Shown here piece after piece: positions 23,020 through 55,990 of a stretch of 64,000 bases of DNA. The notes under the pieces are model-generated. The model did not search any database. It saw nothing but the letters and a program-made list of their open reading frames with translations, and was not told where the DNA came from. A program made the position numbers and the translations under genes. This DNA is from Shewanella glacialimarina (lineage in GTDB: Bacteria; Pseudomonadota; Gammaproteobacteria; Enterobacterales; Shewanellaceae). The stretch spans positions 2,790,001 through 2,854,000 of the forward strand of contig NZ_CP041216.1 in NCBI RefSeq assembly GCF_020511155.1, given 5' to 3'. The first letter of the stretch is position 1; each line of letters begins with the position of its first letter.

Positions 23020-23056
23020 CGCAGCGCCCACCACCAACTTTACTAATGGTTATTTT

Positions 23057-26678: not shown

Positions 26679-26714
26679 CTTACTTATCTTACTTAGCTTA
26701 CTTAGCTTACTTAG
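26679..26714. repeat. Four 9-bp tandem repeats spanning a stop codon
   Basis: CTTACTTAG occurs in four contiguous units (the first ends in T instead of G). On the minus strand the stop codon of the alkylsulfatase lies in the last unit. As the period is nine, each unit places another in-frame TAA, giving a series of four stops. Confidence 0.85.
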
Positions 26715-31132: not shown

Positions 31133-31190
31133 CTTCAAATACCATTTAGGAAGGGTAAATAAAGCGTAGTTGAGTGTTTAATATTTAGCC

Positions 31191-31239: not shown

Positions 31240-31371
31240 CTGTACTTCGTTAGGATCAAAACTTTCACGATGAATACTGTGGGCTTTAAACAGCAAATCA
31301 TTCATTGGCAATGCAAATAACGCTTCAATTTCAGTTTTTTGCCAATCATTGCGAACTTCAGCTAACGACAT
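31240..31371 (-). pseudogene. bioB: Truncated bioB (first 44 codons)
   Basis: The minus strand reads the start of BioB with only a few changes from the complete gene, then ends abruptly after 44 codons at the junction with the RAYT tandem repeat. The Fe-S motif is absent, so it cannot be functional. Its promoter and ribosome region are kept and would drive transcription toward the transposase gene. Confidence 0.92.
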
Positions 31372-31398
31372 GGATCATTCCTTTATTTTGATTTTATG

Positions 31399-31432
31399 TT
31401 GGCTAGGATACCTGTAGCCCGTAAACTGTCAA
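31399..31432. promoter_or_regulatory. Second copy of the face-to-face bio promoters
   Basis: The promoter boxes at 22986-23019 recur here unchanged. One direction serves the second bioA; the other now points through truncated bioB to the transposase gene, which therefore may come under biotin control. Confidence 0.6.
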
Positions 31433-31469
31433 CGCAGCGCCTACCACCAACTTTACTAATGGTTACTTT

Positions 31470-32867: not shown

Positions 32868-32948
32868 TCATGGTAGTCCATTTTCACACACTGCTTGCCA
32901 CACTCTAATCAATGATGCTACAAACATTTAAATCTAAGGTTTATTTAT

Positions 32949-33197
32949 ATGCTTATTGTACAAAGCGCTTTATTGCTCTTTTTGCCTATCGTTTCTTTGA
33001 TAGCGCTAATGGTTTTGATATGGAGTTTAGTGAAAAAACGCCGCCCTCTTTTCTTTAAAACGTCGGTATTTTTTGTTATCAGCTTAATTCTACAAGTACT
33101 GTTTAGCCAAACTGAATTTTGGCAAATTGATCGCTGCCTTGATAATGGTGGCAGCTACAATTACCCGTTAGCCAGATGCGAGTTCACGCCGGCATGA
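32949..33197 (+). CDS. Small membrane protein (intact copy)
   Basis: An 82-residue protein with two hydrophobic segments (LIVQSALLLFLPIVSLIALMVLIWSLV and TSVFFVISLILQVLF) separated by KKRRP, then a short tail with two cysteines (RCLDNGG...LARCEF) probably outside the cytoplasm. I do not recognise the family. A frameshifted copy follows the left bioA, so this gene naturally belongs behind bioA. Confidence 0.7.
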   Translation: MLIVQSALLLFLPIVSLIALMVLIWSLVKKRRPLFFKTSVFFVISLILQVLFSQTEFWQIDRCLDNGGSYNYPLARCEFTPA

Positions 33198-34432: not shown

Positions 34433-35083
34433 TTAGCGCACAAATTTAAGAATATGGCCTTTGAATGGATTAACAAGGTATTCGGTGTGTAGCGGCTTTA
34501 GATGAACCGACGTAAAGCCAAATTCAATCATTTTATTGGTGAGCTTGTTTTTATTTCCCCGACCTGGGTCAACCAAAATCATTTCACAATGGGGCTTAGC
34601 GTGCTCGTTAATAAAGTTAGCTAATAGCTCGACGTGTTCATCTTCGTACAATAAATCACTGCCAATAATCATATCAAACAAACCTAAACTGTCGTCATGG
34701 CTTGCCCAATCAGTTTGTTGATAGGCAATGGGTTTATCTTGATTTAACACAGTGTTTCGAAGTAAAAACTTACCGACTTCTGGGTGATAATCTGTGGCGG
34801 TGATATCAGCATGTTTTTTATTAAGCATTAAACTGGTTAAAGCCATACCACAGCCGATTTCAAGTATTCGTTTAACACCCGTATCGTAATCAGAAATATA
34901 ATGCGCTAGTACTAAGCTTGAAGGCCAAAGAATGCCAAATATTGGCCATGTGGCGGATGAAATACCGAGTTTTTCAGCAATGCCTGCAGGATCGTTAAAT
35001 TCTTGATTATCGCGAAGCGTACACAGATGAATATCGGTCTTACCAAACTCAACGGTTTGGTAACGTAAGCGTAGATTTGTCAT
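34433..35083 (-). CDS. Class I SAM-dependent methyltransferase (METTL/Methyltransf_16 type)
   Basis: A 216-residue methyltransferase. The SAM loop is ILEIGCGMALTSLML, followed by ITATDYHPEV (acidic residue for ribose), DMIIGSDLLYEDEHVE and MILVDPGRGNKNK. This layout matches protein lysine-type family 16 methyltransferases; the substrate is unknown. It stands alone on the minus strand. Confidence 0.8.
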   Translation of the reverse strand: MTNLRLRYQTVEFGKTDIHLCTLRDNQEFNDPAGIAEKLGISSATWPIFGILWPSSLVLAHYISDYDTGVKRILEIGCGMALTSLMLNKKHADITATDYHPEVGKFLLRNTVLNQDKPIAYQQTDWASHDDSLGLFDMIIGSDLLYEDEHVELLANFINEHAKPHCEMILVDPGRGNKNKLTNKMIEFGFTSVHLKPLHTEYLVNPFKGHILKFVR

Positions 35084-37091: not shown

Positions 37092-37964
37092 ATGACAAAA
37101 AAGATAAGTACGCCTACAGAAGTGAGCCAGGCCGACGGGACTGCCAGCAAAAAAACGGTTAATCACCGCAATGCAACCACAACACCAGAGATGCGTCAGT
37201 TCATTCAAGAATCTGATCTCAGCGTAAGCCAATTATCTAAAATTCTGAATATTAGTGAAGCCACTGTGCGTAAATGGCGTAAGCGTGACTCTGTTGATAA
37301 CACTCCTAACACGCCACACAAACTCAATACGACCCTGTCCCCCATGGAAGAATACGTCATGTTGGGTCTGCGTTATCAATTGAAAATGCCTTTAGACAGG
37401 TTGCTAAAAGTCACCCAAGAATTTATTAACCCCAATGTGTCACGCTCGGGTCTTGCCCGCTGCTTAAAACGCTTTGGGGTATCTAAGTTAGATGAGTTCG
37501 ACAGCCCTTTTGTGCCCGAAAAATTTTTTAACCAGCTTCCTGTTACTCAGGGTGCTGACATTCAAACCTATACCGTTAATCCACAAACCTTAGCCGATAC
37601 TTTGTCTCTACCCAGTCCTGATCCTGACAACGTAGTACAAGTCGTGTCCCTAAGTATTCCACCCCAACTAACAAAGCAGCAAGCCTATTCAGTGCTGCTA
37701 GGAGTCGATTTCAAGTCTGACTGGGTTTACTTAGATATTTATCAAGACAGCCATACCCAAGCGAGTAATCGCTATATCACCCATGTCTTAAAGCACGGCC
37801 CGTTTCATTTACGAAAGTTGCTGGTCCGCAACTATCACAGTTTTCTTGCTCGATTTCCTGGAGCAAGTCTATCAGCTGCCAAGCCTAATAATGGCCAACC
37901 TAGCGCAGCTGAATCCCTACATCAGATGGCTCATTCCCAGCCATCAAACGGAGACTCACAATGA
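37092..37964 (+). CDS. pfaR: PfaR-type regulator of the EPA synthase genes
   Basis: A 290-residue protein with an N-terminal helix-turn-helix (SDLSVSQLSKILNISEATVRKWRKR, about residues 41-65), then a second DNA-binding-like segment (PMEEYVMLGLRYQLKMPLDRLLKVTQE...SRSGLARCLKRFGV) like that of IS481-type transposases. The C-terminal part is a degenerate transposase-like core and Ser/Gln-rich tail. Proteins of this type sit upstream of pfaA in marine EPA producers and are described as positive regulators. The stop overlaps the pfaA start (ATGA). Confidence 0.87.
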   Translation: MTKKISTPTEVSQADGTASKKTVNHRNATTTPEMRQFIQESDLSVSQLSKILNISEATVRKWRKRDSVDNTPNTPHKLNTTLSPMEEYVMLGLRYQLKMPLDRLLKVTQEFINPNVSRSGLARCLKRFGVSKLDEFDSPFVPEKFFNQLPVTQGADIQTYTVNPQTLADTLSLPSPDPDNVVQVVSLSIPPQLTKQQAYSVLLGVDFKSDWVYLDIYQDSHTQASNRYITHVLKHGPFHLRKLLVRNYHSFLARFPGASLSAAKPNNGQPSAAESLHQMAHSQPSNGDSQ

Positions 37965-40900
37965 GCCAATCCAACAAAAACACCGACAAACGTCTTAACA
38001 AACGTTTAAAAGATATGCCTGTTGCCATAGTCGGCATGGCGAGTATTTTTGCCAATTCGCGTTATTTAAACAAGTTTTGGGATTTAATCAGCGAAAAAAT
38101 CGATGCCATTACCGAAGTGCCTGACACTCATTGGCGTATCGAAGACTATTACGATGCTAATAAATCTGCGCCGGATAAAAGCTACTGTAAGCGCGGTGGT
38201 TTTTTACCAGAAGTTGACTTTAACCCAATGGAATTCGGCCTGCCGCCTAATATCCTTGAGCTAACAGACTCATCACAATTGTTGTCACTTATTGTGGCAA
38301 AAGAAGTATTAGCCGATGCAGGCGTAGGTGCTGATTACGACACCGACCGCATTGGTATTACGCTAGGTGTGGGTGGTGGTCAAAAGCTTAACCACAGCTT
38401 AAGCGGCCGGCTGCAATATCCTGTGCTTAAAAAAGTATTCAAAAGCAGCGGATTAAGTGATAAAGACACTGAAATGCTGATCAAAAAATTCCAAGATCAG
38501 TATGTTCACTGGGAAGAGAACTCGTTCCCTGGATCTTTGGGTAACGTGATCGCTGGTCGTATTGCTAACCGTTTTGATTTTGGCGGCATGAACTGTGTGG
38601 TCGATGCGGCATGTGCTGGCTCATTAGCTGCGCTGCGCATGGCGTTAACTGAATTAACAGAACATCGCAGTGACATGATGATCACCGGCGGAGTATGTAC
38701 CGATAACTCACCGTCTATGTACATGAGCTTCTCTAAAACCCCTGCTTTTACCACTAACGAAACCATTCAACCTTTTGATATCGATTCAAAAGGCATGATG
38801 ATTGGTGAAGGTATTGGCATGGTGGCATTGAAGCGCCTTGAAGATGCTGAGCGTGATGGCGACCGTATTTATGCTGTCATTAAAGGTGTTGGCGCTTCAT
38901 CAGATGGTAAGTTCAAAAGTATTTATGCTCCGCGCCCTGAAGGCCAAGCAAAAGCATTAAAACGCGCCTATGATGACGCAGGATTTGAGCCACACACTAT
39001 TGGCTTAATTGAAGCCCATGGTACAGGTACTGCAGCGGGTGATGTTGCCGAGTTTAATGGCTTAAAGTCGGTATTTTCTGAAGGCAACGACACTAAGCAA
39101 CACATCGCATTAGGCTCGGTTAAATCTCAAGTCGGTCACACTAAATCGACCGCAGGTACTGCTGGCGTGATTAAGGCGGCCCTTGCACTGCATCACAAGG
39201 TATTGCCGCCGACCATTAATGTCAGCAAACCTAATCCAAAGCTTGGCATTGGGGATTCACCGTTTTATTTGAACACCGAAACGCGTCCATGGATGCCACG
39301 CACTGATAATACTCCTCGCCGCGCCGGCGTAAGCTCATTCGGTTTTGGTGGCACTAACTTCCACGTGGTGTTAGAAGAATACAAGCAAGATCACGCCCGT
39401 GATGCTAAATACCGTCATCGCGCGGTGGCACAAAGTTTACTGATTAGCGCAAGCAATAAAGCGGCACTGCAAGCTGAATTAACCCAGTTATTAAATACCG
39501 TAAAAGCAATTGATACCGCTTCACCTAACAGCAGTGAAATTGAATTAGCCAAGTTAGCTAAACGTTTTGCCGTCACCACACTTGATAGCCAAGCTGCACG
39601 TATTGGTATGGTGGTAAGTTCATTAACTGAGCTTGTGACCCAACTAACACAGGCCGTTGCACAGTTAAGCGCGAACACCGATGATGCCTGGCAATTACCG
39701 TCTGGTACAAGTTATCGTACTAGCGCGTTAGTGGCTAAAGACAGCAAGGTTAAAGTTGCCGCGCTATTTGCTGGTCAAGGTTCACAATACGTCAATATGG
39801 GCGTGGATTTAGCCTGTCACTACCCAGAAATGCGTCAGCAGTTAATCCTAGCCGACAAGGTGTTTGCTAAAAACAAGCAAACACCATTGTCACAAATTCT
39901 ATTTCCAATTCCAGCCTTTGAAGCGGATGATATTGCAGCCCAACAAGCGGCATTAACTAATACCGCGAATGCGCAAAGTGCTATTGGTGCTGTGAGCATG
40001 GGTCAGTATCAACTGTTATCCCATGCTGGTTTTAAAGCCGATATGGTCGCCGGGCACAGTTTTGGTGAACTGTCGGCATTATGTGCTGCTGGGGTTATCT
40101 CTTCTGAGGATTACTACCAATTAGCCTTTGCCCGTGGTCAAGCGATGGCGGCAACGCCTAAAGATCAAGATGCTGGCGCCATGTACGCGGTTATTTTGCC
40201 CGCCACTGCTGATACGGCCAATATTGATAAATTAGAACACTGCATCAAAGATTTTGATGGCGTGAAAGTGGCTAATTACAATTCACCGACTCAGTTAGTG
40301 ATTGCAGGCCCAACGACAACCACCAGTGATGCGGCAAAAGCGATTCAAACCTTAGGCTTTAAAGCCATTGCTTTACCAGTATCAGGTGCATTCCACACGC
40401 CGCTTGTGGCTCATGCCCAAGTACCGTTTGCTAAAGCCATCAGCAAGGTTAAATTTGCTAAGCCAGGCATGAGTTTATATGCCAATGGCACAGGTAAATT
40501 GCACCCTAAAGATCCTAAAGCCATTCAAGCCGCCTTTAGCGAGCACATGCTGCAATCGGTGCGTTTTAGCGATCAATTACAGTCTATGTACGATGCTGGT
40601 GCCCGCGTCTTTGTTGAGTTTGGCCCGAAAAATATTCTACAAAAATTAGTTGAAGGCACCTTAGGCAACCAAAGCGATGCTGTCAGTGTAGTCAGCTTAA
40701 ATCCAAATCCTAAAGGTAATAGCGATATTCAATTACGCCAGGCTGCAACTCAGCTTGCGGTATTAGGGTTAAGCCTTACAGAGGTTGACCCGTATCAAGC
40801 ACCGATTGCTGAATTAGCTAAGTCATCGCCGATGAATGTGAAGCTAACGGCAACCAACTTCATCAGCCCTGCGACCAAAGCCAAAATGCAAAAGTCACTG

Positions 40901-43900
40901 GAAACGGGTCAAGTTGCGCTTAAAGAAGTGAAGGTTGAAGTGCCTGTTGAAAAAATTGTTGAGACTATCGTTGAAAGAATTGTGGAAAAAGAAGTGATCA
41001 AAACAGAATATATTGAAGTGCCACAAGCTGGCAGTGCTAATGCTAATGCGAGTAACAGTGCAAGCGCTCAAACAAGTGCTCCAGCCAACGCCGCGCCTGT
41101 AAACACAGCACCAGTCAGCCATGACAGCATTGGGGCATTTTTTGCCGCCCAGCAACAAACTGCTGAGTTACATCAACAGTTTTTAGCCATTCCACAGCAA
41201 TACGGTGATACGTTTGCCACCTTAATGGCTGCGCAAACGCAAATGGCAGCTTCGGGCGTTGCTATTCCTGATAGCTTGCAGCAATCAATGGCATTCTTCC
41301 ACCAGCATCAAGCGCAAACGCTGCAAAGCCATACCTTGTTCCTTGAGCAACAAGCGCTTTCAAGCCAAAACGCATTAGCCATGTTAAGCGGTCAAGCGCC
41401 AGTTGCATTTGCTCCGGCTCAAGTTCAAGTTCAAGCTGTGCCGGTTGCCACTCAAGCTCGCGTTCAACAGCCAGTTCAACATATTGCGACTCAAACTGCT
41501 GCGCCTCAAACACCTGTCGCTCAAGCTGCTGTGCAAAATCGCGCAGCTCCGGCTCCACAAGCGGCCGTTGCTATGTCAGCTCCAGCGCCTCAAGTAGTGA
41601 CGCCAGTTAAAGCACCTGTACCAACTCCAGTTGCTGCAGCGGCGCCAGTTACTCCAGTGGTAGAAAGTTCAGGCTTAAGCGCACAAACAGCCCTGAGCGC
41701 ACAGAAAGTACTGCAAACCATGCTAGAAGTGGTGGCCGACAAAACCGGTTACCCAACTGAAATGCTAGAGCTTGGCATGGACATGGAAGCCGATTTAGGT
41801 ATCGACTCTATCAAGCGTGTTGAGATTTTAGGTACGGTACAAGACGAATTACCAGGCTTACCAGAATTAAGCCCAGAAGATTTAGCCGAATGTCGTACCC
41901 TTGGTGAAATCGTTGACTACATGAACTCTCGTCTACCAGCTGAGGGCTCTAAGCTGCCAGCAGCAGGTTCAAGTCCAGTTGCAGCATCGGTAGCATCAGC
42001 ACCGACTTCATCAGAGAGCAACGGATTAAGTGCAGCAAAAGTTCAAAGCACCATGATGGCTGTGGTGGCAGATAAAACGGGTTACCCTACTGAAATGCTT
42101 GAACTTGGCATGGATATGGAAGCCGATTTAGGTATCGATTCAATCAAGCGTGTTGAAATTCTTGGTACGGTTCAAGACGAATTACCAGGCTTACCAGAAT
42201 TAAGCCCTGAAGATTTAGCCGAGTGTCGTACATTAGGTGAAATCGTTGACTACATGAACAGCAAATTGCCAACTGCGGGCGCTGCGCCAGCTCAATCAGG
42301 TGTCGCGCCTGTTGCATCTGCAAGCAATGGCTTGTCTGCAGCAACAGCCTTGAGCGCGCAACAGGTTCAAAGCACCATGATGGCTGTGGTTGCCGACAAA
42401 ACCGGCTACCCTACTGAAATGCTAGAACTTGGCATGGACATGGAAGCCGATTTAGGTATCGATTCTATCAAGCGTGTTGAAATTCTTGGTACGGTTCAAG
42501 ACGAATTACCAGGCTTACCAGAACTTAGCCCTGAAGATTTAGCCGAGTGTCGTACCTTAGGCGAGATTGTTGACTACATGAACTCTAAGCTCCCTGCACA
42601 AGGCGCGGCTTCAGTACAACATACTGTGTCTGCACAAGCCGCTCCTGTATCAGGTTTAAGCGCGCAAAAGGTTCAAAGCACCATGATGGCTGTGGTTGCC
42701 GACAAAACCGGTTACCCTACTGAAATGCTAGAACTTGGCATGGATATGGAAGCCGATTTAGGTATCGATTCTATCAAGCGTGTTGAGATTCTCGGTACAG
42801 TACAGGATGAGCTTCCAGGCTTACCAGAACTTAACCCAGAAGATTTAGCCGAGTGTCGTACCCTTGGCGAAATCGTTGCTTATATGGGCAGCAAGCTGCC
42901 AGCCGCAGGCGCCATGAACTCTCCACTGTCTGCACAAGCAGCTCCTGCATCAGGTTTAAGCGCTGAAACAGCCTTGAGCGCAGAAAAAGTACAAAGCACT
43001 ATGATGTCAGTGGTTGCCGACAAAACCGGTTACCCAACTGAAATGCTTGAGTTAAGCATGGACATGGAAGCTGATTTAGGTATCGACTCTATCAAGCGTG
43101 TTGAGATTTTAGGCACAGTACAAGATGAGCTTCCAGGCTTACCAGAACTGAACCCAGAAGATTTAGCCGAGTGTCGTACCTTAGGCGAAATCGTCGCCTA
43201 CATGAACTCTAAGCTAACTGCTGGCGGCGCATCAACAACTAGCCCTGCTGCACAAACTGTTGTTCACCAAGCTACAGCTGAACTTGCTACAGACTTACCT
43301 CCTCATCAGGAAGTCGCGCTAAAAAAGCTACCAGCGGCGGATAAGTTAGTTGGCTGTTTTTCTAAAGACGCATGCATCGTTATCAATGATGACGGCCACA
43401 ATGCCGGCGTATTAGCAGAAAAATTAGTGTCAACAGGCCTAACCGTCGCAGTGATCCACAGCCCTAAAGCCATTACCAATAAACAGTCGCCACTAAGTAG
43501 TGCAGTTGCTAGCTTTGAGTTAACGCAAGTCAGTGATGATGCGATTAGCGCTGTGATTAAGCAAATTAGCGCTAAACACAAGATTGCAGGTTTTGTGCAT
43601 CTACAACCTCAGTTTGAACAGATAAACAATGCATTACCACTAAGCGACGCTGGTTTCAAAGCTGTTGAGCAAGCCTTCTTAATGGCGAAGCATTTACAAA
43701 AAGGTTTTGAAACCTTATCAAAAACTGAGCGTGTTAGCTTTATGACGGTAAGTCGTATTGATGGTGGTTTTGGTTATTTAGATACCCAAGCCCTAGCGAC
43801 AACTGAGCTAAACCAGGCGGCACTGTCAGGATTAAGCAAAACACTCAGCCATGAATGGCCAAACGTGTTCTGCCGCGCCTTAGATATTGCACCAAGCTTT

Positions 43901-45904
43901 GAAGCGGCAGAACTAGCCAAGGCAATTGTTGCAGAGCTGTTTGATATTGACACGTCAATCACTGAAATCGGCATCAGCAAGCAAGGTCGTCACACGCTTA
44001 GTGCAACGGCTTGTGCAACAACGCGCTACCAAACCACCACGTTAAACCAAAATGATACTGTGCTAGTTACGGGTGGCGCAAAAGGAGTCACATTTGAATG
44101 TGCCCTCACCTTAGCCAAACAAACTAAATCACACTTTGTTTTAGCGGGACGTAGCGAGCATTTAGCGGCTAATTTACCAACCTGGGCGCAAGGCAAAAAA
44201 GTTAATGAGCTTAAAGCGGCAGCGATTGGGTTTATTCAATCCCAAGGTGACAAACCAACACCTAAGCAAATTGATGCCTTAGTTTGGCCTATTACCAGCA
44301 GCTTAGAAATTGACCGCGCGCTTAATGCATTTAAAGACGTGGGCGCCAGCGCTGAATATATCAGCATGGATGTCAGCTCAGATGCGGCAATTAAGCAAAC
44401 GATTAAAGGGCTTAACACCATTACAGGCATCATCCATGGAGCTGGTGTGTTAGCCGACAAACATATTCAAGACAAAACCTTAGCTGAATTAGGCCGTGTT
44501 TATGGCACTAAAGTATCGGGCTTTGCCGGCATTATTAACGCCATAGATGCCAGCAAACTTAAGCTAGTGGCTATGTTCTCATCTGCGGCGGGTTTTTACG
44601 GCAATACAGGCCAAAGTGACTATTCAATGTCTAATGAGATCCTCAACAAAACAGCACTGCAACTTGCGGCTAACTACCCACAAGCCAAAGTGATGAGCTT
44701 TAACTGGGGCCCTTGGGACGGCGGCATGGTCAGTTCAACATTGAAGAAGATGTTTGTTGAGCGCGGCGTGTACGTTATTCCATTAGATAAAGGCGCAAAC
44801 TTGTTTGCCCACAGCCTGCTGTCTGAAACGGGCGTGCAAATGCTGATTGGCTCGGACATGCAAGGTTCTGACACTTCAGCCCAAGCTAATGCTCCGCAAG
44901 CGAGTGCTGCTGTAAAAAAGCTTAATGCGGACTCTTTGCATAACGCCAAGGGTTCGCTGACACTGTCTTTTAATGGTATGAACAACACTTATATTGTTGA
45001 ACGTGTACTTAACCCGCTTTTAATGCCCTTCATTGAAGATCATTGCATTGCGGGTAATCCAGTACTGCCGACCGTATGTGCCATTCAATGGATGCGTGAA
45101 ACTGCGCAGCTATTATGTGGCCAGGCGGTTTGCGTTCAAGATTATAAGTTACTCAAAGGCATTATTTTTGACACCAATACGCCGCAGGTATTAACCCTGA
45201 CATTAACGCAAACGCAGGCCGGCTTAAATGCAATTATTGCTAGCCGTCTGCAAAGCGATCCGGTAGACAGTGTGTTAAGACCGCAATATCAAGCGAGCCT
45301 GATTGTTAATGAAAAAGTTGTTAACCAAAACTTGGTTAACGAGAAAATTGTTAATGCATCGAACGCCTTACCTGCAATCATCACCACTGCAAAACAGTTG
45401 GCAAATGAAGGTAAAGTGATAAGCACTGACAGCGAGCTTTATTCAAACGGCAGCTTATTCCACGGCCCTCGCCTACAAGGGATTAAGCAAGTGTTAATTG
45501 CTGACGATCAGCAGTTGGTGTGCAAAGTTGAACTACCGCAGATTAACGACAATGATTGTGCCGGTTTTGCACCTAAGTTAACCCTTGGTGGCAGTCAGGC
45601 ATTTGCTGAGGATTTGTTATTACAGGCCATGCTTGTGTGGGCGCGCATTAAGCATGATGCAGCCAGCTTGCCATCTACCATTGGTGAGTTGACTACCTTT
45701 GACCCATTTGCATCGGGTGATAAAGGTTATTTAGTACTAACCGTGCTGAAAAGCACCAGCCGTTCACTCACTGCCGACATTGCGCTTTACCATGAAGATG
45801 GTCGCTTAAGTTGCACTATGTCAGCGGCTAAAACCACTATAAGCAAAAGCTTGAACGATGCCTTTATCGCACCGCGTAATAAGCTTATAGAGGGTGCAAC
45901 TTGA
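37961..45904 (+). CDS. pfaA: Polyunsaturated fatty acid synthase subunit PfaA (KS-MAT-5xACP-KR-PS-DH)
   Basis: A 2647-residue iterative synthase subunit. Domains in order: ketosynthase (about 16-475; Cys218 in DAACAGS), malonyl/acyl transferase (about 600-900; Ser700 in GHSFGE), a coiled, Glu/Val-rich and then Ala/Pro/Gln-rich linker (about 985-1245), five acyl carrier domains, ketoreductase (nucleotide loop near 2033, VLVTGGAKG; YSMSN active site), and a C-terminal hotdog domain with DHCIAGNPVLP (HxxxGxxxxP, His2361), the PS-DH signature. The ACP serines are at 1283, 1394, 1502, 1604 and 1710. It elongates and reduces the EPA chain together with PfaB-D. GGAG lies eight bases before the ATG; pfaB overlaps the stop. 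Confidence 0.97.
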   Translation: MSQSNKNTDKRLNKRLKDMPVAIVGMASIFANSRYLNKFWDLISEKIDAITEVPDTHWRIEDYYDANKSAPDKSYCKRGGFLPEVDFNPMEFGLPPNILELTDSSQLLSLIVAKEVLADAGVGADYDTDRIGITLGVGGGQKLNHSLSGRLQYPVLKKVFKSSGLSDKDTEMLIKKFQDQYVHWEENSFPGSLGNVIAGRIANRFDFGGMNCVVDAACAGSLAALRMALTELTEHRSDMMITGGVCTDNSPSMYMSFSKTPAFTTNETIQPFDIDSKGMMIGEGIGMVALKRLEDAERDGDRIYAVIKGVGASSDGKFKSIYAPRPEGQAKALKRAYDDAGFEPHTIGLIEAHGTGTAAGDVAEFNGLKSVFSEGNDTKQHIALGSVKSQVGHTKSTAGTAGVIKAALALHHKVLPPTINVSKPNPKLGIGDSPFYLNTETRPWMPRTDNTPRRAGVSSFGFGGTNFHVVLEEYKQDHARDAKYRHRAVAQSLLISASNKAALQAELTQLLNTVKAIDTASPNSSEIELAKLAKRFAVTTLDSQAARIGMVVSSLTELVTQLTQAVAQLSANTDDAWQLPSGTSYRTSALVAKDSKVKVAALFAGQGSQYVNMGVDLACHYPEMRQQLILADKVFAKNKQTPLSQILFPIPAFEADDIAAQQAALTNTANAQSAIGAVSMGQYQLLSHAGFKADMVAGHSFGELSALCAAGVISSEDYYQLAFARGQAMAATPKDQDAGAMYAVILPATADTANIDKLEHCIKDFDGVKVANYNSPTQLVIAGPTTTTSDAAKAIQTLGFKAIALPVSGAFHTPLVAHAQVPFAKAISKVKFAKPGMSLYANGTGKLHPKDPKAIQAAFSEHMLQSVRFSDQLQSMYDAGARVFVEFGPKNILQKLVEGTLGNQSDAVSVVSLNPNPKGNSDIQLRQAATQLAVLGLSLTEVDPYQAPIAELAKSSPMNVKLTATNFISPATKAKMQKSLETGQVALKEVKVEVPVEKIVETIVERIVEKEVIKTEYIEVPQAGSANANASNSASAQTSAPANAAPVNTAPVSHDSIGAFFAAQQQTAELHQQFLAIPQQYGDTFATLMAAQTQMAASGVAIPDSLQQSMAFFHQHQAQTLQSHTLFLEQQALSSQNALAMLSGQAPVAFAPAQVQVQAVPVATQARVQQPVQHIATQTAAPQTPVAQAAVQNRAAPAPQAAVAMSAPAPQVVTPVKAPVPTPVAAAAPVTPVVESSGLSAQTALSAQKVLQTMLEVVADKTGYPTEMLELGMDMEADLGIDSIKRVEILGTVQDELPGLPELSPEDLAECRTLGEIVDYMNSRLPAEGSKLPAAGSSPVAASVASAPTSSESNGLSAAKVQSTMMAVVADKTGYPTEMLELGMDMEADLGIDSIKRVEILGTVQDELPGLPELSPEDLAECRTLGEIVDYMNSKLPTAGAAPAQSGVAPVASASNGLSAATALSAQQVQSTMMAVVADKTGYPTEMLELGMDMEADLGIDSIKRVEILGTVQDELPGLPELSPEDLAECRTLGEIVDYMNSKLPAQGAASVQHTVSAQAAPVSGLSAQKVQSTMMAVVADKTGYPTEMLELGMDMEADLGIDSIKRVEILGTVQDELPGLPELNPEDLAECRTLGEIVAYMGSKLPAAGAMNSPLSAQAAPASGLSAETALSAEKVQSTMMSVVADKTGYPTEMLELSMDMEADLGIDSIKRVEILGTVQDELPGLPELNPEDLAECRTLGEIVAYMNSKLTAGGASTTSPAAQTVVHQATAELATDLPPHQEVALKKLPAADKLVGCFSKDACIVINDDGHNAGVLAEKLVSTGLTVAVIHSPKAITNKQSPLSSAVASFELTQVSDDAISAVIKQISAKHKIAGFVHLQPQFEQINNALPLSDAGFKAVEQAFLMAKHLQKGFETLSKTERVSFMTVSRIDGGFGYLDTQALATTELNQAALSGLSKTLSHEWPNVFCRALDIAPSFEAAELAKAIVAELFDIDTSITEIGISKQGRHTLSATACATTRYQTTTLNQNDTVLVTGGAKGVTFECALTLAKQTKSHFVLAGRSEHLAANLPTWAQGKKVNELKAAAIGFIQSQGDKPTPKQIDALVWPITSSLEIDRALNAFKDVGASAEYISMDVSSDAAIKQTIKGLNTITGIIHGAGVLADKHIQDKTLAELGRVYGTKVSGFAGIINAIDASKLKLVAMFSSAAGFYGNTGQSDYSMSNEILNKTALQLAANYPQAKVMSFNWGPWDGGMVSSTLKKMFVERGVYVIPLDKGANLFAHSLLSETGVQMLIGSDMQGSDTSAQANAPQASAAVKKLNADSLHNAKGSLTLSFNGMNNTYIVERVLNPLLMPFIEDHCIAGNPVLPTVCAIQWMRETAQLLCGQAVCVQDYKLLKGIIFDTNTPQVLTLTLTQTQAGLNAIIASRLQSDPVDSVLRPQYQASLIVNEKVVNQNLVNEKIVNASNALPAIITTAKQLANEGKVISTDSELYSNGSLFHGPRLQGIKQVLIADDQQLVCKVELPQINDNDCAGFAPKLTLGGSQAFAEDLLLQAMLVWARIKHDAASLPSTIGELTTFDPFASGDKGYLVLTVLKSTSRSLTADIALYHEDGRLSCTMSAAKTTISKSLNDAFIAPRNKLIEGAT
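41710..43215 (+). repeat. Five tandem acyl carrier protein repeats inside pfaA
   Basis: Five nearly identical domains, each with EADLGIDSIKRVEIL; the pantetheine serine codons are at 41807, 42140, 42464, 42770 and 43088 (spacing 333, 324, 306 and 318 bp). DNA identity within the ~200-bp cores is very high while the Ala/Ser/Pro-rich linkers differ. The fifth repeat has LSMDM in place of LGMDM. Such an array is prone to copy-number change by recombination. Confidence 0.96.
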
Positions 45905-48096: not shown

Positions 48097-51000
48097 GTTC
48101 TCATAATGCCCCCAAAATTGCCATAGTCGGCCTTGCTAATCAGTATCCTGATGCGGACACGCCGGCTAAGTTTTGGCAAAACTTATTAGATAAAAAAGAC
48201 TCACGTAGTCAAATCAGCGATCAAAAACTGAATGCAACGCCCAGTGATTACACAGGCGTGCAAGGTCAGTCTGACCGCTTTTATTGCGACAAAGGCGGCT
48301 ACATTGAAAACTTCAGTTTCAATGCCAATGGTTACCATGTGCCAGCCAGTGCATTTGACGGTTTAGATGACAGTTTTTTATGGGCCACAGACACTGCGCG
48401 TAATGCCTTAAATGATGCGGGCATATCGTTAAACGATAGCCGCTTATCACGCACCGGTATTGTGATGGGCACGCTGTCATTCCCTACGGCTAAGTCCAAT
48501 GAGCTGTTTGTGCCGCTTTATCACGGCGCTGTTGAAAAAGCCTTACAGGTAAAACTTGCCCAGCCTAATTTTGTGCTGCAAGGTTTTGGCAATGAGCAGA
48601 GTGCTGGTAATAAACCGGCTGAGCCAATCAATTATCGAAATGGTGCTATTGCCCACAATGCTTCAAAATTGGTTGCCGATGCACTGGGTTTAGGCGCAGC
48701 GCAATTAAGCTTAGATGCCGCCTGTGCAAGTTCTGTTTATGCCTTAAAACTGGCGTGTGATTACTTGCACACAGGCAAGGCAGATATCATGCTAGCGGGT
48801 GCAGTATCAGGCGCCGACCCTTTCTTTATCAACATGGGTTTCTCGATTTTTCACGCCTACCCAGACCACGGCATTTCAGCGCCGTTTGATAGTAACAGCA
48901 AAGGCTTATTTGCCGGTGAAGGTGCGGGTGTATTAGTACTCAAACGGCTTGACGATGCTCAGCGTGATGGCGACCATATTTATGCACTCGTTAGCGGTAT
49001 TGGCTTGTCAAACGACGGAAAAGGTCAGTTTGTACTAAGCCCAAATAGCAAAGGTCAGGTGTTGTCATTTGAGCGCGCTTATCGTGAAGCTGACATAGCG
49101 CCTGCCAGCATTGAAGTGATTGAATGCCATGCCACCGGCACGCCTTTGGGTGACAAGGTCGAGCTGACCTCCATGGAGCGCTTCTTTGAAGATAAGCTTA
49201 ATGGCAGCGCAACCCCATTAATTGGTTCAGCTAAATCTAACTTAGGCCATTTACTTACCGCCGCAGGTATGCCGGGGATCATGAAAATGATTTTCGCCAT
49301 GCGCCAAGGTGTGTTGCCGCCAAGTATCAATATCAGCAGCCCTATCGCCTCGCCGAATCAATTGTTTGGTCAGCAAACCTTGCCTAATGAAGTGTTACCT
49401 TGGCCAGACAAAGCTGGCAATACAGCGCGTCATGCTGGGGTGTCGGTATTTGGCTTTGGTGGTTGTAACGCGCATTTATTGATTGAATCTTATGATAACA
49501 ATGCGATTAATCATGATTTAACACATACGCCGGCTACCAAACAAGACACGTTAAACGCTGCTAACACGCCGCTTAACATTACCGGTATGGCTGCCCATTT
49601 TGGCCAAGCCAGCAACATTAATGCACTGGCAGACAAGATAGCTCAGCAACAACCTTTGATGACAGACTTACCTGCTAAACGCTGGAAAGGGTTAAATAAT
49701 CATCCCGAGTTATTAGCAAAACACGGTCTGTACTCTGTTCCCCAAGGCGCTTATATTGAACAGTTTGACTTTGATTTTTTGCGCTTTAAAGTGCCGCCAA
49801 ATGAAGATGACAGATTAATATCACAGCAACTGTTATTAATGAAAGTGGCCGATGAAGCCATCGTGGACGCCAAACTTAAACCTGGCAGTAAAGTCGCGGT
49901 ATTGGTGGCGATGGAAACTGAGCTTGAACTGCATCAGTTCCGTGGCCGCGTTAATCTGCATAGCCAAATAGCCCAAAGCCTTAAAGCACAGGGTGTTGTG
50001 CTAACAGATAATGAATACCACGCCCTTGAAGCTATTGCCATGGACAGTGTATTAGATGCCGCTAAGCTGAATCAATATACCAGTTTTATCGGCAATATTA
50101 TGGCGTCGCGGATTTCATCATTGTGGGACTTTAATGGTCCGGCCTTTACTATTTCAGCTGGCGAGCAATCTGTGAGTCGCTGTATTGATGTGGCACAAAA
50201 TCTGTTTGCCTTAGGCTCAATTCAAGAGCCACTAGACGCTGTGATCATCGCTGCAGTAGATTTGTCGGGCAGTATTGAAAATATGCTACTTAAAAATAGC
50301 TGCTTATCTGCATCAGGTATTCAGGCAAGCGATATTGCTACTAGCCCTTGGCATGTTGGCGAAGGTGCTGGAGCAATTGTATTGCAGACAAAAACGGCCA
50401 ATACCAGCTTAACTGACAACAGTTACGCCAGTATCGACAGTTTGCAATTTAGTAGCCACTATTGCGCCAATAATATCAGTGCTAACGTGTTTGCTAAGCC
50501 GACTAATTTGATTGAACTTAATCAATCTCCTGAAAGCCGTTTCGATGTTGCTGGCCAAGCATTGTTTAGCCAATTAGCATCTGGCACAACAATGCTAACC
50601 CAAGCGCAAGATATCATGGGACACAGCTTTGCGGCATCCGGCATGGCCAGTATGCTGCATGCTTTAATTAAGATGAGTCAGTTAAATGTCAGTGCTGGCG
50701 CTAATGCGGCTAATACAAGTGCAAACCATGCTAGTGCTAAAATCGTCACGGTAAGTGAAAACCAGTGTTCAAACATTGATTTATCGGTATCTCAGCCACA
50801 GCAACAAGCGCTAACACATCGTTTGAGTGCGCCCCTTGCTCAGCAGCTATCGCACACAATCGCGACTGGCAGCAAATTAAGTTTAATCAAGCAAGTCAGC
50901 CTTGGCGGACGAGATATTTATCAACATATTATCGATACACCAATAGCATCAATTGATAGCATTAAAGCTAAATGTGCCCATATTGCTCCGCAACCAAAGG

Positions 51001-53978
51001 CAGCGACATCCGTCACAGTAGTTCCTATGACAAACACGCTATCGACAACAAAAAATGCGCCCTCAACAGAGACGACACACACTATTATGCCTAATCTAAA
51101 ACCGGCTTCTCCTGCACTAAACTCTGCAAACTCTTCAAACGCTGCGTTTACCCAGAGTGTGCCACCAGCCCATTTAAATGCTTTTCAGCAAAACCAGTGG
51201 CTAGCGCAACAAGCACATTTGGCGTTTTTAAAAAGCCGTGATGCAGGCCTTAAAGTCGCTGATACCTTACTAAAGCAGCAGTTAGCTCAGGTTAATAGCC
51301 AGCAAAATGTTTACCCATCAAGCCCTGTACTTGCTCAACCTTTACAACAGCAAGCTCAAGCGGTAAACGTATTAGCCCAACCTGTGCCACAAACGGCATT
51401 AACACCCAATCATGCTAAGGTTCCCGCCTACACAGCCCCAATTCCAGCGGATAAACCGTGCATTTGGAATTACGCAGATTTAGTGGAATATGCCGAAGGG
51501 GATATCGCCAAGGTATTTGGTCAAGATTACGCCATTATTGACGGCTATAAACGTCGCGTACGTCTACCTACCACTGACTATTTATTGGTATCACGCGTCA
51601 CTAAACTTGATGCAACCATGAACCAATATAAGCCCTGTTCAATGACCACTGAATATGACATCCCAGTGGACGCCCCTTATTTAGTCGATGGTCAAATCCC
51701 TTGGGCGGTCGCGGTTGAATCTGGTCAATGTGACCTGATGTTGATTAGCTATTTAGGCATCGACTTTGAAAATAAAGGCGAGCGTGTTTATCGCTTATTA
51801 GATTGCACCCTGACCTTCTTGGCTGATTTACCTCGCGGCGGCGACACTCTGCGTTACGACATTAAAATCAATAACTTTGCTAGCAATGGCGACACCCTAC
51901 TGTTCTTCTTCTCTTACGAATGTTTCGTTGGCGATAAGATGATTTTGAAAATGGATGGCGGCTGTGCAGGCTTCTTTACTGACAAAGAACTCGCAGACGG
52001 AAAAGGCGTAATTCACACTGAAGATGAAATCAAAAACCGTCTTAGCGTGATGAACAATCCTAACAAACCGCGTTTTGAACCACTGCTACATTGTGCTCAA
52101 ACAGCGTTTAACTATGGTCAAATTCATCATTTACTCAATGGCGATATCGGTAGTTGTTTTGGCGGCGCCCATGTTAGCCACCAGCTAGAAAATGGATTAC
52201 AGCCATCGTTATGTTTCGCCTCTGAAAAATTCTTAATGATTGAGCAAGTGAGCAAGTTAGATGTCCGTGGCGGTGCTTGGGGCTTAGGCTTAATTGAAGG
52301 CCATAAACAATTGGCACCGGATCACTGGTATTTTCCATGCCACTTCCAAGGCGATCAGGTCATGGCTGGATCATTAATGGCCGAAGGCTGTGGTCAGTTA
52401 TTACAGTTCTTTATGTTGCATATCGGCATGCACACACAAGTGAGTAATGGTCGTTTCCAACCACTTGAAAATGCTTCGCAAAAAGTACGTTGTCGCGGAC
52501 AAGTATTACCGCAACATGGCGAATTAACTTATCGCATGGAAGTCACTGAAATTGGCACTAGCCCTCGCCCATACGCAAAAGCCAACATTGATATTTTGCT
52601 TAATGGCAGAGTGGTTGTCGATTTCCAAAACTTAGGCGTAATGATTAAAGAAGAAAGCGAATGTACTCTTTACCCGCTTTTATCTTCAGCGGCCACGAGT
52701 GCGAATATCCCCGTAAATAAAGCGCCATTGATGGCACAAGAGCCGGATTTAAGTGCGCCAACCAATAAAGGGGTTATTCCGCTTAAGCACGTTGAAGCAC
52801 CTAGAGTGGCAGCTGATTCTAAATATGCCAACCGCGTACCTGATACAGTGCCATTTACGCCTTATCATATGTTTGAATTTGCCACCGGTAACATTGAAAA
52901 ATGTTTCGGCCCAGATTTCAGCATTTACCGCGGCTTAATTCCACCACGTACTCCCTGTGGTGATTTACAGCTAACCACTCGCGTCGTTGAAATTAACTGT
53001 AAACGCGGTGAGCTGAAAAAACCTTCTTCTTGTATTGCTGAATATGAAGTACCTGCAGATGCTTGGTATTTTGCTAAAAACAGTCATCAAGCAGTTATGC
53101 CGTATTCGGTGTTAATGGAAATTTCATTACAACCCAATGGCTTTATTTCTGGTTACATGGGCACCACCCTAGGCTTCCCAGGGCAAGAGCTGTTTTTCCG
53201 TAACTTAGATGGTGGCGGTAAATTGCTACGCCATGTGGATTTACGTGGTAAAACTATCGTCAACGATTCAAAGTTGTTATCAACGGTTATTGCTGGCAGT
53301 AACATTATTCAAAGCTTCACATTTGAGCTCAGCGTTGATAACGAGCCGTTTTATACTGGTAGCGCGGTTTTTGGTTACTTCAAAGGTGACGCGCTTAAAA
53401 ACCAGCTTGGTATCGATAACGGTAGAATTACTCAGCCTTGGCATATCGACAATAATGTTGCCGCTGACATTAGCGTCAATTTACTCGATAAAACTTCACG
53501 GGTATTTAATGCGCCAACCCGTCAACCCCATTATCGACTAGCGGGCGGCCAACTTAACTTTATCGACAAGGCCGAAATCGTCGAGACGGGCGGCAAGTAT
53601 GGTAAAGGTTATCTTGCAGCGTCACGCACTATTGACCCAAGTGATTGGTTCTTCCAATTCCACTTCCATCAAGATCCGGTAATGCCGGGTTCATTAGGTG
53701 TTGAAGCCGTGATTGAGTTAATGCAAACTTACGCCATCAGCACAGACTTAGGTAAAGGTTTCACTAACCCGAAATTTGGCCAAATTCTGTCGGACATTAA
53801 ATGGAAATATCGTGGTCAAATTAACCCATTAAACAAACAAATGTCACTCGATGTGCATATCAGCGCAGTAAAAGATGAAGACGGCAAACGCATCATCATA
53901 GGCGATGCAAATCTTAGCAAAGATGGTCTGCGTATTTATGAAGTCAAAGACATCGCAATCTGTATTGAAGAAGCTTAG
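48093..53978 (+). CDS. pfaC: Polyunsaturated fatty acid synthase subunit PfaC (KS-CLF-DH-DH)
   Basis: A 1961-residue subunit. Ketosynthase (about 5-470; Cys211 in DAACASS), chain-length factor (about 500-870; a KS fold where the Cys position reads SAGEQS, so no nucleophile), a Gln/Ala-rich linker, and two FabA-like dehydratase/isomerase regions (about 1115-1580 and 1585-1955). The catalytic His are at about 1417 (CHFQGDQVMAGSL) and 1857 (FHFHQDPVMPGSL). It builds the methylene-interrupted cis double bonds. TTG start at 48093 lies in the pfaB stop (TTGA) with AAGGAG upstream. Confidence 0.96.
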   Translation: MSSHNAPKIAIVGLANQYPDADTPAKFWQNLLDKKDSRSQISDQKLNATPSDYTGVQGQSDRFYCDKGGYIENFSFNANGYHVPASAFDGLDDSFLWATDTARNALNDAGISLNDSRLSRTGIVMGTLSFPTAKSNELFVPLYHGAVEKALQVKLAQPNFVLQGFGNEQSAGNKPAEPINYRNGAIAHNASKLVADALGLGAAQLSLDAACASSVYALKLACDYLHTGKADIMLAGAVSGADPFFINMGFSIFHAYPDHGISAPFDSNSKGLFAGEGAGVLVLKRLDDAQRDGDHIYALVSGIGLSNDGKGQFVLSPNSKGQVLSFERAYREADIAPASIEVIECHATGTPLGDKVELTSMERFFEDKLNGSATPLIGSAKSNLGHLLTAAGMPGIMKMIFAMRQGVLPPSINISSPIASPNQLFGQQTLPNEVLPWPDKAGNTARHAGVSVFGFGGCNAHLLIESYDNNAINHDLTHTPATKQDTLNAANTPLNITGMAAHFGQASNINALADKIAQQQPLMTDLPAKRWKGLNNHPELLAKHGLYSVPQGAYIEQFDFDFLRFKVPPNEDDRLISQQLLLMKVADEAIVDAKLKPGSKVAVLVAMETELELHQFRGRVNLHSQIAQSLKAQGVVLTDNEYHALEAIAMDSVLDAAKLNQYTSFIGNIMASRISSLWDFNGPAFTISAGEQSVSRCIDVAQNLFALGSIQEPLDAVIIAAVDLSGSIENMLLKNSCLSASGIQASDIATSPWHVGEGAGAIVLQTKTANTSLTDNSYASIDSLQFSSHYCANNISANVFAKPTNLIELNQSPESRFDVAGQALFSQLASGTTMLTQAQDIMGHSFAASGMASMLHALIKMSQLNVSAGANAANTSANHASAKIVTVSENQCSNIDLSVSQPQQQALTHRLSAPLAQQLSHTIATGSKLSLIKQVSLGGRDIYQHIIDTPIASIDSIKAKCAHIAPQPKAATSVTVVPMTNTLSTTKNAPSTETTHTIMPNLKPASPALNSANSSNAAFTQSVPPAHLNAFQQNQWLAQQAHLAFLKSRDAGLKVADTLLKQQLAQVNSQQNVYPSSPVLAQPLQQQAQAVNVLAQPVPQTALTPNHAKVPAYTAPIPADKPCIWNYADLVEYAEGDIAKVFGQDYAIIDGYKRRVRLPTTDYLLVSRVTKLDATMNQYKPCSMTTEYDIPVDAPYLVDGQIPWAVAVESGQCDLMLISYLGIDFENKGERVYRLLDCTLTFLADLPRGGDTLRYDIKINNFASNGDTLLFFFSYECFVGDKMILKMDGGCAGFFTDKELADGKGVIHTEDEIKNRLSVMNNPNKPRFEPLLHCAQTAFNYGQIHHLLNGDIGSCFGGAHVSHQLENGLQPSLCFASEKFLMIEQVSKLDVRGGAWGLGLIEGHKQLAPDHWYFPCHFQGDQVMAGSLMAEGCGQLLQFFMLHIGMHTQVSNGRFQPLENASQKVRCRGQVLPQHGELTYRMEVTEIGTSPRPYAKANIDILLNGRVVVDFQNLGVMIKEESECTLYPLLSSAATSANIPVNKAPLMAQEPDLSAPTNKGVIPLKHVEAPRVAADSKYANRVPDTVPFTPYHMFEFATGNIEKCFGPDFSIYRGLIPPRTPCGDLQLTTRVVEINCKRGELKKPSSCIAEYEVPADAWYFAKNSHQAVMPYSVLMEISLQPNGFISGYMGTTLGFPGQELFFRNLDGGGKLLRHVDLRGKTIVNDSKLLSTVIAGSNIIQSFTFELSVDNEPFYTGSAVFGYFKGDALKNQLGIDNGRITQPWHIDNNVAADISVNLLDKTSRVFNAPTRQPHYRLAGGQLNFIDKAEIVETGGKYGKGYLAASRTIDPSDWFFQFHFHQDPVMPGSLGVEAVIELMQTYAISTDLGKGFTNPKFGQILSDIKWKYRGQINPLNKQMSLDVHISAVKDEDGKRIIIGDANLSKDGLRIYEVKDIAICIEEA

Positions 53979-53998
53979 GCCCAAAAGGAATAATAATA

Positions 53999-55639
53999 AT
54001 GACAACACAAGTGCATAACGAAAAGCTTTCACCATGGCCTTGGATAGTAGATTCAAACGATGCCAATTTTGACCTTGCTACTATTGGCAAAAAACTAAAA
54101 GATTTGTCACAGGCATGCTATTTAATTAATCACCCTGAGAAAGGGTTGGGCGTGGCTCAACATGCTCAGGTGATTACTGAGCAAAATGATGCGTTAACGG
54201 CAAATAACCAAAACTTACCGGTGAGTGCGTTTGCCCCAGCCCTTGGCACCCAAAGCTTAGGTGACAGTAACTTCCGCCGGGTTCACGGGGTTAAATACGC
54301 CTATTATGCAGGTGCTATGGCCAATGGCATTGCCTCTGAAGAGTTAGTGATAGCCTTAGGCCAGGCAGGTATTTTATGCTCATTTGGTGCAGCGGGTCTT
54401 ATTCCATCACGGGTTGAACAAGCCATTAAGCGCATTCAAGCAGCGCTGCCAAATGGGCCATACATGTTTAACTTAATCCACAGCCCAAGCGAGCCCGCAT
54501 TAGAGCGCGGCAGTGTGGAATTATTTTTAAAGCACAAAGTGCGTACCGTTGAGGCATCAGCCTTTTTAGGCTTAACCCCACAAATTGTGTACTACCGCGC
54601 CGCCGGATTAAGCCGTGATGCAAATGGCGAGATTAATATCGCCAATAAAGTGATAGCTAAAATTAGCCGCACCGAAGTGGCGATTAAATTTATGGAGCCG
54701 GCTCCTGAAAAAATGCTCCAAAAACTGGTTGATGAAGGCTTAATTACCACTGAACAAATGGCACTCGCGCTACTTGTGCCGATGGCTGATGATATTACTG
54801 CAGAAGCCGATTCTGGCGGCCATACCGACAATCGTCCTTTGGTGACGTTATTGCCGACTATTTTGGCACTTAAAGACAAGGTCCAAGCGCAATATCAATA
54901 TAAAACACCAATTCGTGTCGGTTGTGGTGGCGGTGTGGGTACACCCGATGCTGCGCTTGCTACATTTAACATGGGCGCAGCTTTTATTGTGACCGGTTCA
55001 ATCAACCAGGCTTGTGTTGAAGCTGGCGCGAGTGAATATACCCGTAAACTTTTGGCTACCACCGAAATGGCCGATGTGACTATGGCACCAGCGGCAGATA
55101 TGTTCGAAATGGGCGTTAAGCTGCAAGTGGTAAAACGCGGCACCTTGTTTCCGATGCGAGCCAACAAATTGTATGAACTTTATACGCGTTATGACTCTAT
55201 CGAAGCGATCCCTATTGATGAGCGTGAAAAGCTTGAAAAACAAGTGTTCCGCTCAAGCCTAGAGGACATTTGGGCTGGGACTGTGGCGCACTTTAATGAA
55301 CGTGACCCTAAGCAAATAGAGCGTGCTAAAGATAATCCAAAACGAAAAATGGCATTGATTTTCCGTTGGTATTTAGGGCTATCTAGCCGCTGGTCAAATA
55401 CCGGAGAAGTGGGCCGTGAAATGGACTACCAAATTTGGGCAGGTCCTTCATTAGGTGCGTTCAATGAATGGGCGAAAGGCAGTTATTTAGATGATTATAC
55501 CAAGCGAAATGCGGTAGACTTAGCCAAACACATGATGCACGGCGCCGCATACCAAGCCCGAGTTAACTTACTTACCGCCCAAGGTGTGGCTGTTCCAGTT
55601 GAATTACAACGCTGGCGCCCACAGGATCAGGTGAAATAG
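53999..55639 (+). CDS. pfaD: Polyunsaturated fatty acid synthase enoyl reductase PfaD
   Basis: A 546-residue FMN-dependent enoyl reductase of the nitronate-monooxygenase-like TIM-barrel type, reducing the double bonds not kept in EPA. Markers include GAAGLIPSRVEQAIKRIQAALPNGPYMFNLIHSPSEPALE, EADSGGHTDNRPL, RVGCGGGVGTPDAALATFNMGAAFIVTGSINQACVEAGASEYTRKLL and the C-terminal FNEWAKGSYLDDY. It starts 20 bp after pfaC with AAAGGAA before the ATG. It is the last synthase gene; no PfaE transferase follows. Confidence 0.96.
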   Translation: MTTQVHNEKLSPWPWIVDSNDANFDLATIGKKLKDLSQACYLINHPEKGLGVAQHAQVITEQNDALTANNQNLPVSAFAPALGTQSLGDSNFRRVHGVKYAYYAGAMANGIASEELVIALGQAGILCSFGAAGLIPSRVEQAIKRIQAALPNGPYMFNLIHSPSEPALERGSVELFLKHKVRTVEASAFLGLTPQIVYYRAAGLSRDANGEINIANKVIAKISRTEVAIKFMEPAPEKMLQKLVDEGLITTEQMALALLVPMADDITAEADSGGHTDNRPLVTLLPTILALKDKVQAQYQYKTPIRVGCGGGVGTPDAALATFNMGAAFIVTGSINQACVEAGASEYTRKLLATTEMADVTMAPAADMFEMGVKLQVVKRGTLFPMRANKLYELYTRYDSIEAIPIDEREKLEKQVFRSSLEDIWAGTVAHFNERDPKQIERAKDNPKRKMALIFRWYLGLSSRWSNTGEVGREMDYQIWAGPSLGAFNEWAKGSYLDDYTKRNAVDLAKHMMHGAAYQARVNLLTAQGVAVPVELQRWRPQDQVK

Positions 55640-55684
55640 TTTACCACTTGGATAGCAAGCTGGTATCAATAAAAGTATCAGTAA

Positions 55685-55716
55685 TGTCAGTCTCTTTTAA
55701 AAGGAAGCGACTGACA
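55685..55716. repeat. Inverted repeat between pfaD and the following small gene
   Basis: Arms TGTCAGTC and GACTGACA (8 bp, perfect) with a 16-base spacer. No T-run follows, so it is not a standard terminator; it might be an operator or an RNA-stabilising hairpin at the end of the pfa mRNA. Confidence 0.6.
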
Positions 55717-55729
55717 ATTAAATTAGGTA

Positions 55730-55990
55730 ATGGCTATGAGTGAAACGCAAAAACTGGATTTCTCAGCGGTTAATGGCACCACATTAGCGTCTTTTAATCA
55801 GCATAAGAATCTGATTAAGCGGATGTTAAAGGGCAACAGTGCAACTTGCAGTGAGTGTAATAAACCATTGATATTACAGCTGCCGCCAAATACTCACAAA
55901 GCCAAACCCAGCGAAAAAGCACCTGGTATTTATTGCGCGAAAGGCTGTACTGATATCGAGCTTGATATGGAAGCTGTATCCTTGATGTAA
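55730..55990 (+). CDS. Small cysteine-motif protein downstream of pfaD
   Basis: An 86-residue soluble protein with CSECNKP (CxxC) near residue 40 and YCAKGCTDIEL (CxxxC) near residue 68, plausibly one zinc site. I do not recognise the family. It starts at ATG 55730 or at the ATG two codons later; neither has a strong ribosome site. It is 90 bp behind pfaD, same strand, and a terminator follows it, so it may share the pfa transcript. A link to EPA synthesis is only inferred from position. Confidence 0.65.
   Translation: MAMSETQKLDFSAVNGTTLASFNQHKNLIKRMLKGNSATCSECNKPLILQLPPNTHKAKPSEKAPGIYCAKGCTDIELDMEAVSLM

Follow-up and report, generated by a model that had tools for sequence, protein, structure and literature searches.

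An intact EPA-type pfa synthase locus in Shewanella glacialimarina and its distant pfaE gene

We found that the window, a stretch of 64,000 nucleotides from Shewanella glacialimarina (bases 2,790,001-2,854,000 of a genome consisting of a single contig of 4,456,447 bases), carries a complete polyunsaturated fatty acid synthase locus, and that the only Sfp-type phosphopantetheinyl transferase (PPTase) gene found in the genome lies far away from it. The best account of these data, and a very probable one, is that of an intact type A (EPA) pfa locus whose orthologous pfaE came to lie 1.18 Mb away after an ancestral chromosomal rearrangement, with the PPTase acting in trans. This settles the question of the activator that was open when the window was read by itself, since the gene exists and its location has been found. 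Below, G000 denotes the genome of the window and the other G numbers denote comparison genomes.

Gene content of the pfa locus

The genes pfaR-A-B-C-D form five intact frames on one strand (Table 1). The four-base overlaps at pfaR/pfaA, pfaA/pfaB and pfaB/pfaC suggest that translation of these genes may be coupled. NCBIfam models matched PfaA (3970 bits, cut-off 1010), PfaB (582 bits, cut-off 144) and PfaD (709 bits, cut-off 449), and the NCBIfam list used holds no dedicated PfaC model. Pfam marked five ACP stretches (PF00550) in PfaA; in PfaC it detected two stretches of FabA-like DH. The catalytic residues are in place: Cys218 (KS) and Ser700 (MAT) in PfaA, Ser427 in PfaB, and Cys211 (KS), His1417 and His1857 (both DH) in PfaC. 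The order and domains follow the type A layout, namely pfaA with KS-MAT-ACP(4-6)-KR, pfaB with AT, pfaC with KS-CLF-DH2 and pfaD with ER.

Table 1. Features of the pfa locus and its surroundings, in window coordinates
Feature	Position	Strand	Description
Methyltransferase gene	34433..35083	-	216 aa; two genes upstream of pfaR
pfaR	37092..37964	+	290 aa; presumed transcriptional regulator; HTH and IS481-family (DDE) transposase-like region
pfaA	37961..45904	+	2647 aa; KS - MAT - 5 ACP - KR - PKS-type DH
ACP attachment serines, first-to-last span	41807..43090	+	PfaA Ser1283, 1394, 1502, 1604, 1710; motif LGIDSI
pfaB	45901..48096	+	731 aa, TTG start assumed; EPA-type acyltransferase (Ser427, His548)
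pfaC	48093..53978	+	1961 aa, TTG start assumed; KS - CLF - two FabA-like DH
pfaD	53999..55639	+	546 aa; enoyl reductase-like
86-aa ORF, conserved 3' of pfaD	55730..55990	+	present in 31/100 searched loci

An earlier reading of the sequence alone (the sequence-only reading) had called the pfaR-A-B-C-D set complete, and our analysis bears this out: its coordinates and frames were right, the domain models passed, and the active sites that it named in PfaA, PfaB and PfaC are all at the residues it gave. It did not list the PKS-type DH near the C-terminus of PfaA (Pfam PKS_DH_N, residues 2342-2421). Position 55990, where it ended the cluster, is the stop of the 86-aa ORF. Across the 31 loci that carry this ORF it is 57-95% identical, and some of the 100 loci stop short of that place.

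The NCBIfam IS481 model matched all of the PfaRs scanned (47 of 56 were aligned and scanned), and the PfaR of the window scored 64 bits, below the cut-off of 224. Its structure model was of low confidence (mean pLDDT 64), and a Foldseek search with this model gave weak matches, the best being IstA (E 0.007, TM about 0.14), so we rely on sequence for the likeness of PfaR to transposases. PfaR has already been called an inactive transposase relative working as a regulator (excerpt of PMC4744452).

A PADLOC scan of seven neighbouring proteins gave no match. Elsewhere in the window, a 1.95 kb duplication (22827-24774 and 31240-33182, 92.7% DNA identity) carries bioA. Both copies are complete aminotransferase genes (proteins 95.5% identical, dN 0.026, dS 0.13), and the second is placed apart from the other biotin genes. 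Close to the second copy, the gene at 30155-31138 gave a sub-threshold match to a REP-associated tyrosine transposase (42.5 bits, cut-off 80).

The distant pfaE and the site of the break

A PF01648 profile search of the whole genome found two PPTase genes, both more than 0.4 Mb from the pfa cluster. One is AcpS (126 aa, 3.26 Mb) and the other is an Sfp-type gene of 318 aa at G000:C1:1642536-1643489 on the + strand, 1.18 Mb from pfaR. The same search found no PPTase encoded in the window and no pfaE relic near pfaR. The sequence-only reading had placed no such enzyme within 19 kb on either side of the cluster, and had suggested searching the genome for a PfaE-type Sfp transferase. The absence stands and the search found the gene, but the distance was inexact because the window has 37 kb upstream of the cluster and only 8.4 kb downstream of pfaD. 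Its view that a distant gene is needed for activation is supported, since one Sfp-type gene was found and PfaA was the only large carrier protein found; the refuting case that it named, a genome lacking such a transferase, does not apply.

The distant protein has an Sfp-type sequence with the catalytic motifs GxDIE and WxxKE; the G, D and E of the first and the W, K and E of the second are kept in all 49 PPTase rows of our alignment. Four PfaE pairs from the unlinked group gave dN/dS values of 0.17-0.27. For seven linked pairs, of which three have 28-42 kb spacing, the range was 0.20-0.47, and one further pair, whose linkage is not established, gave 0.50. Judged by these ratios, the distant pfaE is under purifying selection, as in linked copies.

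The gene order of relatives identifies the distant gene. In G048, which has a linked pfaE, the genes run syd, queF, a peptidase gene, pfaE (reverse), pfaR and pfaA. Here queF and syd were named by NCBIfam, and the peptidase, which has no NCBIfam match, appears to be S10-like from a reading of its sequence. In G000, G034, G008 and G033, the PPTase gene is still flanked on one side by the peptidase gene, queF and syd, without pfaR, and has a hybrid histidine kinase gene on its other side, with extra genes interposed in places. The kinase gene, PPTase gene and queF are also found together in G051, where the pfa contig ends within the cluster, and pfaE is still near queF in the unlinked genomes G063 and G046. 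A seven-row PPTase clade united G000, G034, G008 and G033 with G063, G051 and the linked G048. Its support was 100/97 in a tree of all 49 PPTase rows and 99/96 in a tree of 43 of them, which left out six divergent PPTases (G001, G005, G042, G059, G084, G110). Since the distant Sfp-type gene adjoins queF and syd like the linked pfaE of a relative, and clusters with that pfaE, it is by synteny and phylogeny the pfaE orthologue.

The surroundings of the synthase genes were compared in the same way. The methyltransferase gene of Table 1 has a homologue directly upstream of pfaR in G055, G098 and G105, and therefore this neighbourhood stayed with the cluster. Downstream of pfaD are FAA-hydrolase and chemoreceptor genes, whose homologues follow pfaD in G048, G114, G107, G085 and G055. 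It appears that pfaE remained close to queF and pfaR-ABCD came to lie in another place, or that the chromosome broke between the two. As we read the gene orders, the simplest single inversion between pfaE and pfaR does not account for the orientations seen, that of the kinase gene now close to pfaE being at odds with it.

We propose that a chromosomal rearrangement in the ancestors parted pfaE, left by queF and syd, from pfaR-ABCD, which would account for the distance of 1.18 Mb. Once produced from its remote locus, PfaE would act in trans, moving 4'-phosphopantetheine from CoA onto the five ACP serines of PfaA. PfaA, PfaB, PfaC and PfaD would then assemble EPA iteratively, with PfaB as the terminal acyltransferase. 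Orthology and the lack of other candidates both point to the distant gene as the activator of the PfaA ACPs.

Alkyl sulfatase-like genes, 41% identical to each other, are present both upstream of pfa (26707-28740, - strand) and near the distant pfaE (L003:9297-11297, - strand). The second of these has relatives in G098, where they adjoin pfaE, and in G046, where a single gene separates them from it.

The expected product and other accounts of the locus

PfaB sets the product, and EPA- and DHA-type PfaBs differ at listed residues, according to the excerpt of a 2026 structural paper (PMC12895367). In the PfaB of the window, four of the five single positions tested are EPA-type (Val343, Ile399, His444, Ile447), which agrees with the earlier proposal that its type fits EPA producers. 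The fifth, Lys368, is of neither type; this position is Glu (E399) in S. baltica and Leu in the DHA type, and it varies across the genus (Q, E, D, H, A, K). Apart from this Lys368 in place of Glu399, the protein shares PGVGT, LS..AI, GYSMG, TAMH, NAKGAD and the H and I of PHxxI with the S. baltica PfaB (PDB 9ry8), as far as that excerpt describes it. The Ile, Glu, Leu and PGLMS of a type B (DHA) PfaB were not found in it. Among 61 Shewanella PfaB rows (52 G rows plus nine named rows, with at least six of the latter duplicating a G row), the first position is Val in 61, the second Ile in 57 (Val in four), the third His in 54 and the fourth Ile in 58. We also typed 16 PfaBs from other families of the order by residues alone; ten carry I, E and L at three single positions, and the other six show neither pattern in full. 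Six PfaBs of Vibrio and Photobacterium that were intended for this comparison gave no row.

A cluster that makes DHA rather than EPA could be argued from Lys368 in place of the EPA-type Glu, and from the five ACPs, as known DHA producers have. The sequence-only reading had taken this ACP number as a sign of EPA, which proved mistaken. Five ACPs are given for M. marina and C. psychrerythraea, which make DHA, and six for an EPA-producing Shewanella (excerpt of PMC5029812), and 31 further PfaAs of the genus carry between 3 and 7 ACP motifs; ACP number was thus rejected as a product marker. Against DHA stand the four EPA-type positions of a PfaB of 731 aa, whereas the residues published for the DHA type (I, E, L) sit in open frames of 861-920 aa in the ten outside PfaBs, and we consider this product extremely unlikely. 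The locus reads from these residues as an EPA-type synthase, with EPA as the predicted product.

The other accounts concern the activator and the state of the cluster. PF00550 found eight carrier domains in the whole genome: one in an 81-codon frame taken as AcpP, five in PfaA and two in small free-standing proteins. No multi-domain carrier protein besides PfaA was found by this search. The two free-standing ACPs lie at 3.03 Mb in a glycan-type cluster (L308:8634-13508) with NeuB, methyltransferase and AMP-binding genes. Eight PF00550 domains were also found in G034, and 24 in G114, where 14 are in large non-PfaA frames and a third PPTase gene stands beside some of them. Because PF00550 shows no other large carrier in G000, PfaA would be the one obvious client of its Sfp-type PPTase. 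Sfp-type enzymes are broad, and the PPTase might instead serve another carrier, such as the two small ACPs, with the ACPs of PfaA left to AcpS or never activated. We hold this to be very unlikely, given that PfaA is the one multi-domain carrier and that pfaABCD without pfaE needs a supplied PPTase in E. coli despite the AcpS of that host (excerpts of PMC2901515; PMC5029812). The same excerpts describe PfaE as replaceable by other PPTases. The distant gene could in principle be an unrelated PPTase that took the place of a lost true pfaE, as its distance and its mere 38-63% identity to linked pfaE genes in Shewanella would allow. But it has the same neighbours (peptidase, queF, syd) as the linked pfaE of G048 and falls with it in a supported clade, and linked pfaE genes are divergent too, that of G114 being mostly 42-58% identical to its matches elsewhere. 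Synteny largely refutes such a takeover, which is highly improbable. We give similarly little probability to decay or silencing of the cluster following the split. Apparent TTG starts of pfaB and pfaC would fit decay, as would the fact that a shared promoter region for activator and synthase is no longer possible; against it, every frame and active site is intact, and dN/dS in the unlinked group is 0.13-0.24 for PfaB, next to the PfaE values given above.

Linkage of pfaE and exchange of synthase genes in Shewanella

To place the split in the genus, we scored the presence of PfaE-like PPTase and PfaB at E up to 0.001 in 117 Shewanella genomes. Both were present in 104, PPTase only in five, PfaB only in five and neither in three; a PfaE-like PPTase thus accompanies PfaB in 104 of 109 PfaB-bearing genomes. 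The two genes are on one contig in 91 genomes and on different contigs in 13. The PPTase gene is upstream and divergent in 84 of the 91, at 8.4-51.8 kb from pfaB (median 11.9 kb, and under 10.5 kb in 32 genomes). It is 58-123 kb off on the opposite side in three (G014, G100, G111) and over 1.1 Mb from pfaB in four (G000, G034, G063, G046). Within this one genus, activator and megasynthase thus form a natural series in which they are tightly linked, spaced by 10-50 kb or fully separated.

Another PPTase besides AcpS is carried by four of the five PfaB-only genomes (open frames of 236-261 aa). G018, G056, G065 and G088, which have no PfaE-like match at E 0.001, have two PfaB-like loci each and a PPTase other than AcpS. 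In G105, a PfaB-only genome, AcpS is the sole PPTase and an assembly gap is likely, since queF is missing too. No PPTase was found in the flanks of S. holmiensis, S. aestuarii and S. subflava, which start just 1.2 kb upstream of pfaR, and many other species are likewise without one there; with so short a flank, this says little.

The locus of G000 shares the pfaA-D order and domains, an EPA-type PfaB and a PfaE-type PPTase in the genome with the type A clusters of Shewanella, Vibrio and Photobacterium (excerpt of PMC3098273). The upstream pfaR is also common, being present at 55 of the 57 loci searched. In the usual layout described there, which is not needed for function, pfaE lies just upstream of pfaA in the opposite direction, in contrast to the 1.18 Mb of G000. 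Unlinked pfaE is already known outside Shewanella: Moritella marina and myxobacteria have separate synthase and activator loci like G000 (excerpts of PMC4882568; PMC6463001), pfaE is clustered or elsewhere according to host (PMC6463001), and the wording 'located elsewhere' in PMC12895367 is a further precedent. Unlike these cases, the split of G000 sits inside a mostly linked genus, and the locus where pfaE stayed behind is recognisable. The layout here is unusual, and among the matches listed from open-licence full texts no title or abstract opening mentions a pfaE split inside Shewanella. For users of pfa genes, we expect clusters cloned from the unlinked group to show no activity unless the distant gene, or a different Sfp-type PPTase, is supplied with them.

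Synthase and activator may also be separately exchangeable. We see about an even chance that pfaA, pfaB and the start of pfaC passed between the lineage of G000 and that of G107 (Shewanella sp. SR44-3) and G114 without pfaE. In an RpoB + GyrA tree of 30 genomes, G107 and G114 join the S. frigidimarina group (SH-aLRT 97) and not G000. Forcing them together with G000, G034, G008 and G033 gave an AU p of 0.045, and with G000 and G034 alone a p of 0.115 (not rejected), so these housekeeping tests lie close to the threshold. The PfaA tree places them with G000 and its kin (SH-aLRT 100), as does the PfaB tree (100/100; 46 genomes having both PfaB and PPTase proteins), in a clade that also includes G051. 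A position of their PfaB inside their own species group was rejected (p 0.0002).

Synonymous distances, at sites near saturation, were smaller for G000-G107 than for G000-G008 in two parts of PfaA (0.78 and 0.57 vs 1.07 and 0.97), in the start of PfaC (0.73 vs 1.26) and in PfaB (1.35 vs 1.66). The reverse was found for GyrA (1.37 vs 1.01), and RpoB differs little (0.47 and 0.40). PfaR (1.24 and 0.75) and PfaD (1.14 and 1.07) show no G000-G107 closeness. The 86-aa ORF after pfaD is less alike in G107/G114 (61-63% identical) than in the S. frigidimarina group (83-86%), so the shared tract seems confined to the interval between pfaR and pfaD.

G114 and G107 have a divergent PfaE of 375-378 aa beside pfaR, and their queF-syd loci (L119 and L120) gave no PPTase match or pfaE relic (best E 0.048 and 0.080). 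AU tests on 43 of the 49 PPTase rows rejected this PfaE as kin of the G000 group (p 0.0066, or 0.0049 with G051 added) and as kin of its own species group (p 7e-5), tests that its long branch may distort. If the exchange is true, G107 and G114 pair a synthase core of G000 type with a PfaE about half identical, and the unlinking of pfaE would allow synthase exchange with function kept. The exchange could have gone either way, because a clade of G000, G034, G008 and G033 without G107/G114 was not rejected for PfaA (p 0.42) or PfaB (p 0.38). Across the genus the synthase genes have a mosaic look, since the G027/G078 group is closer to G000 in the PfaA tree than G048 is.
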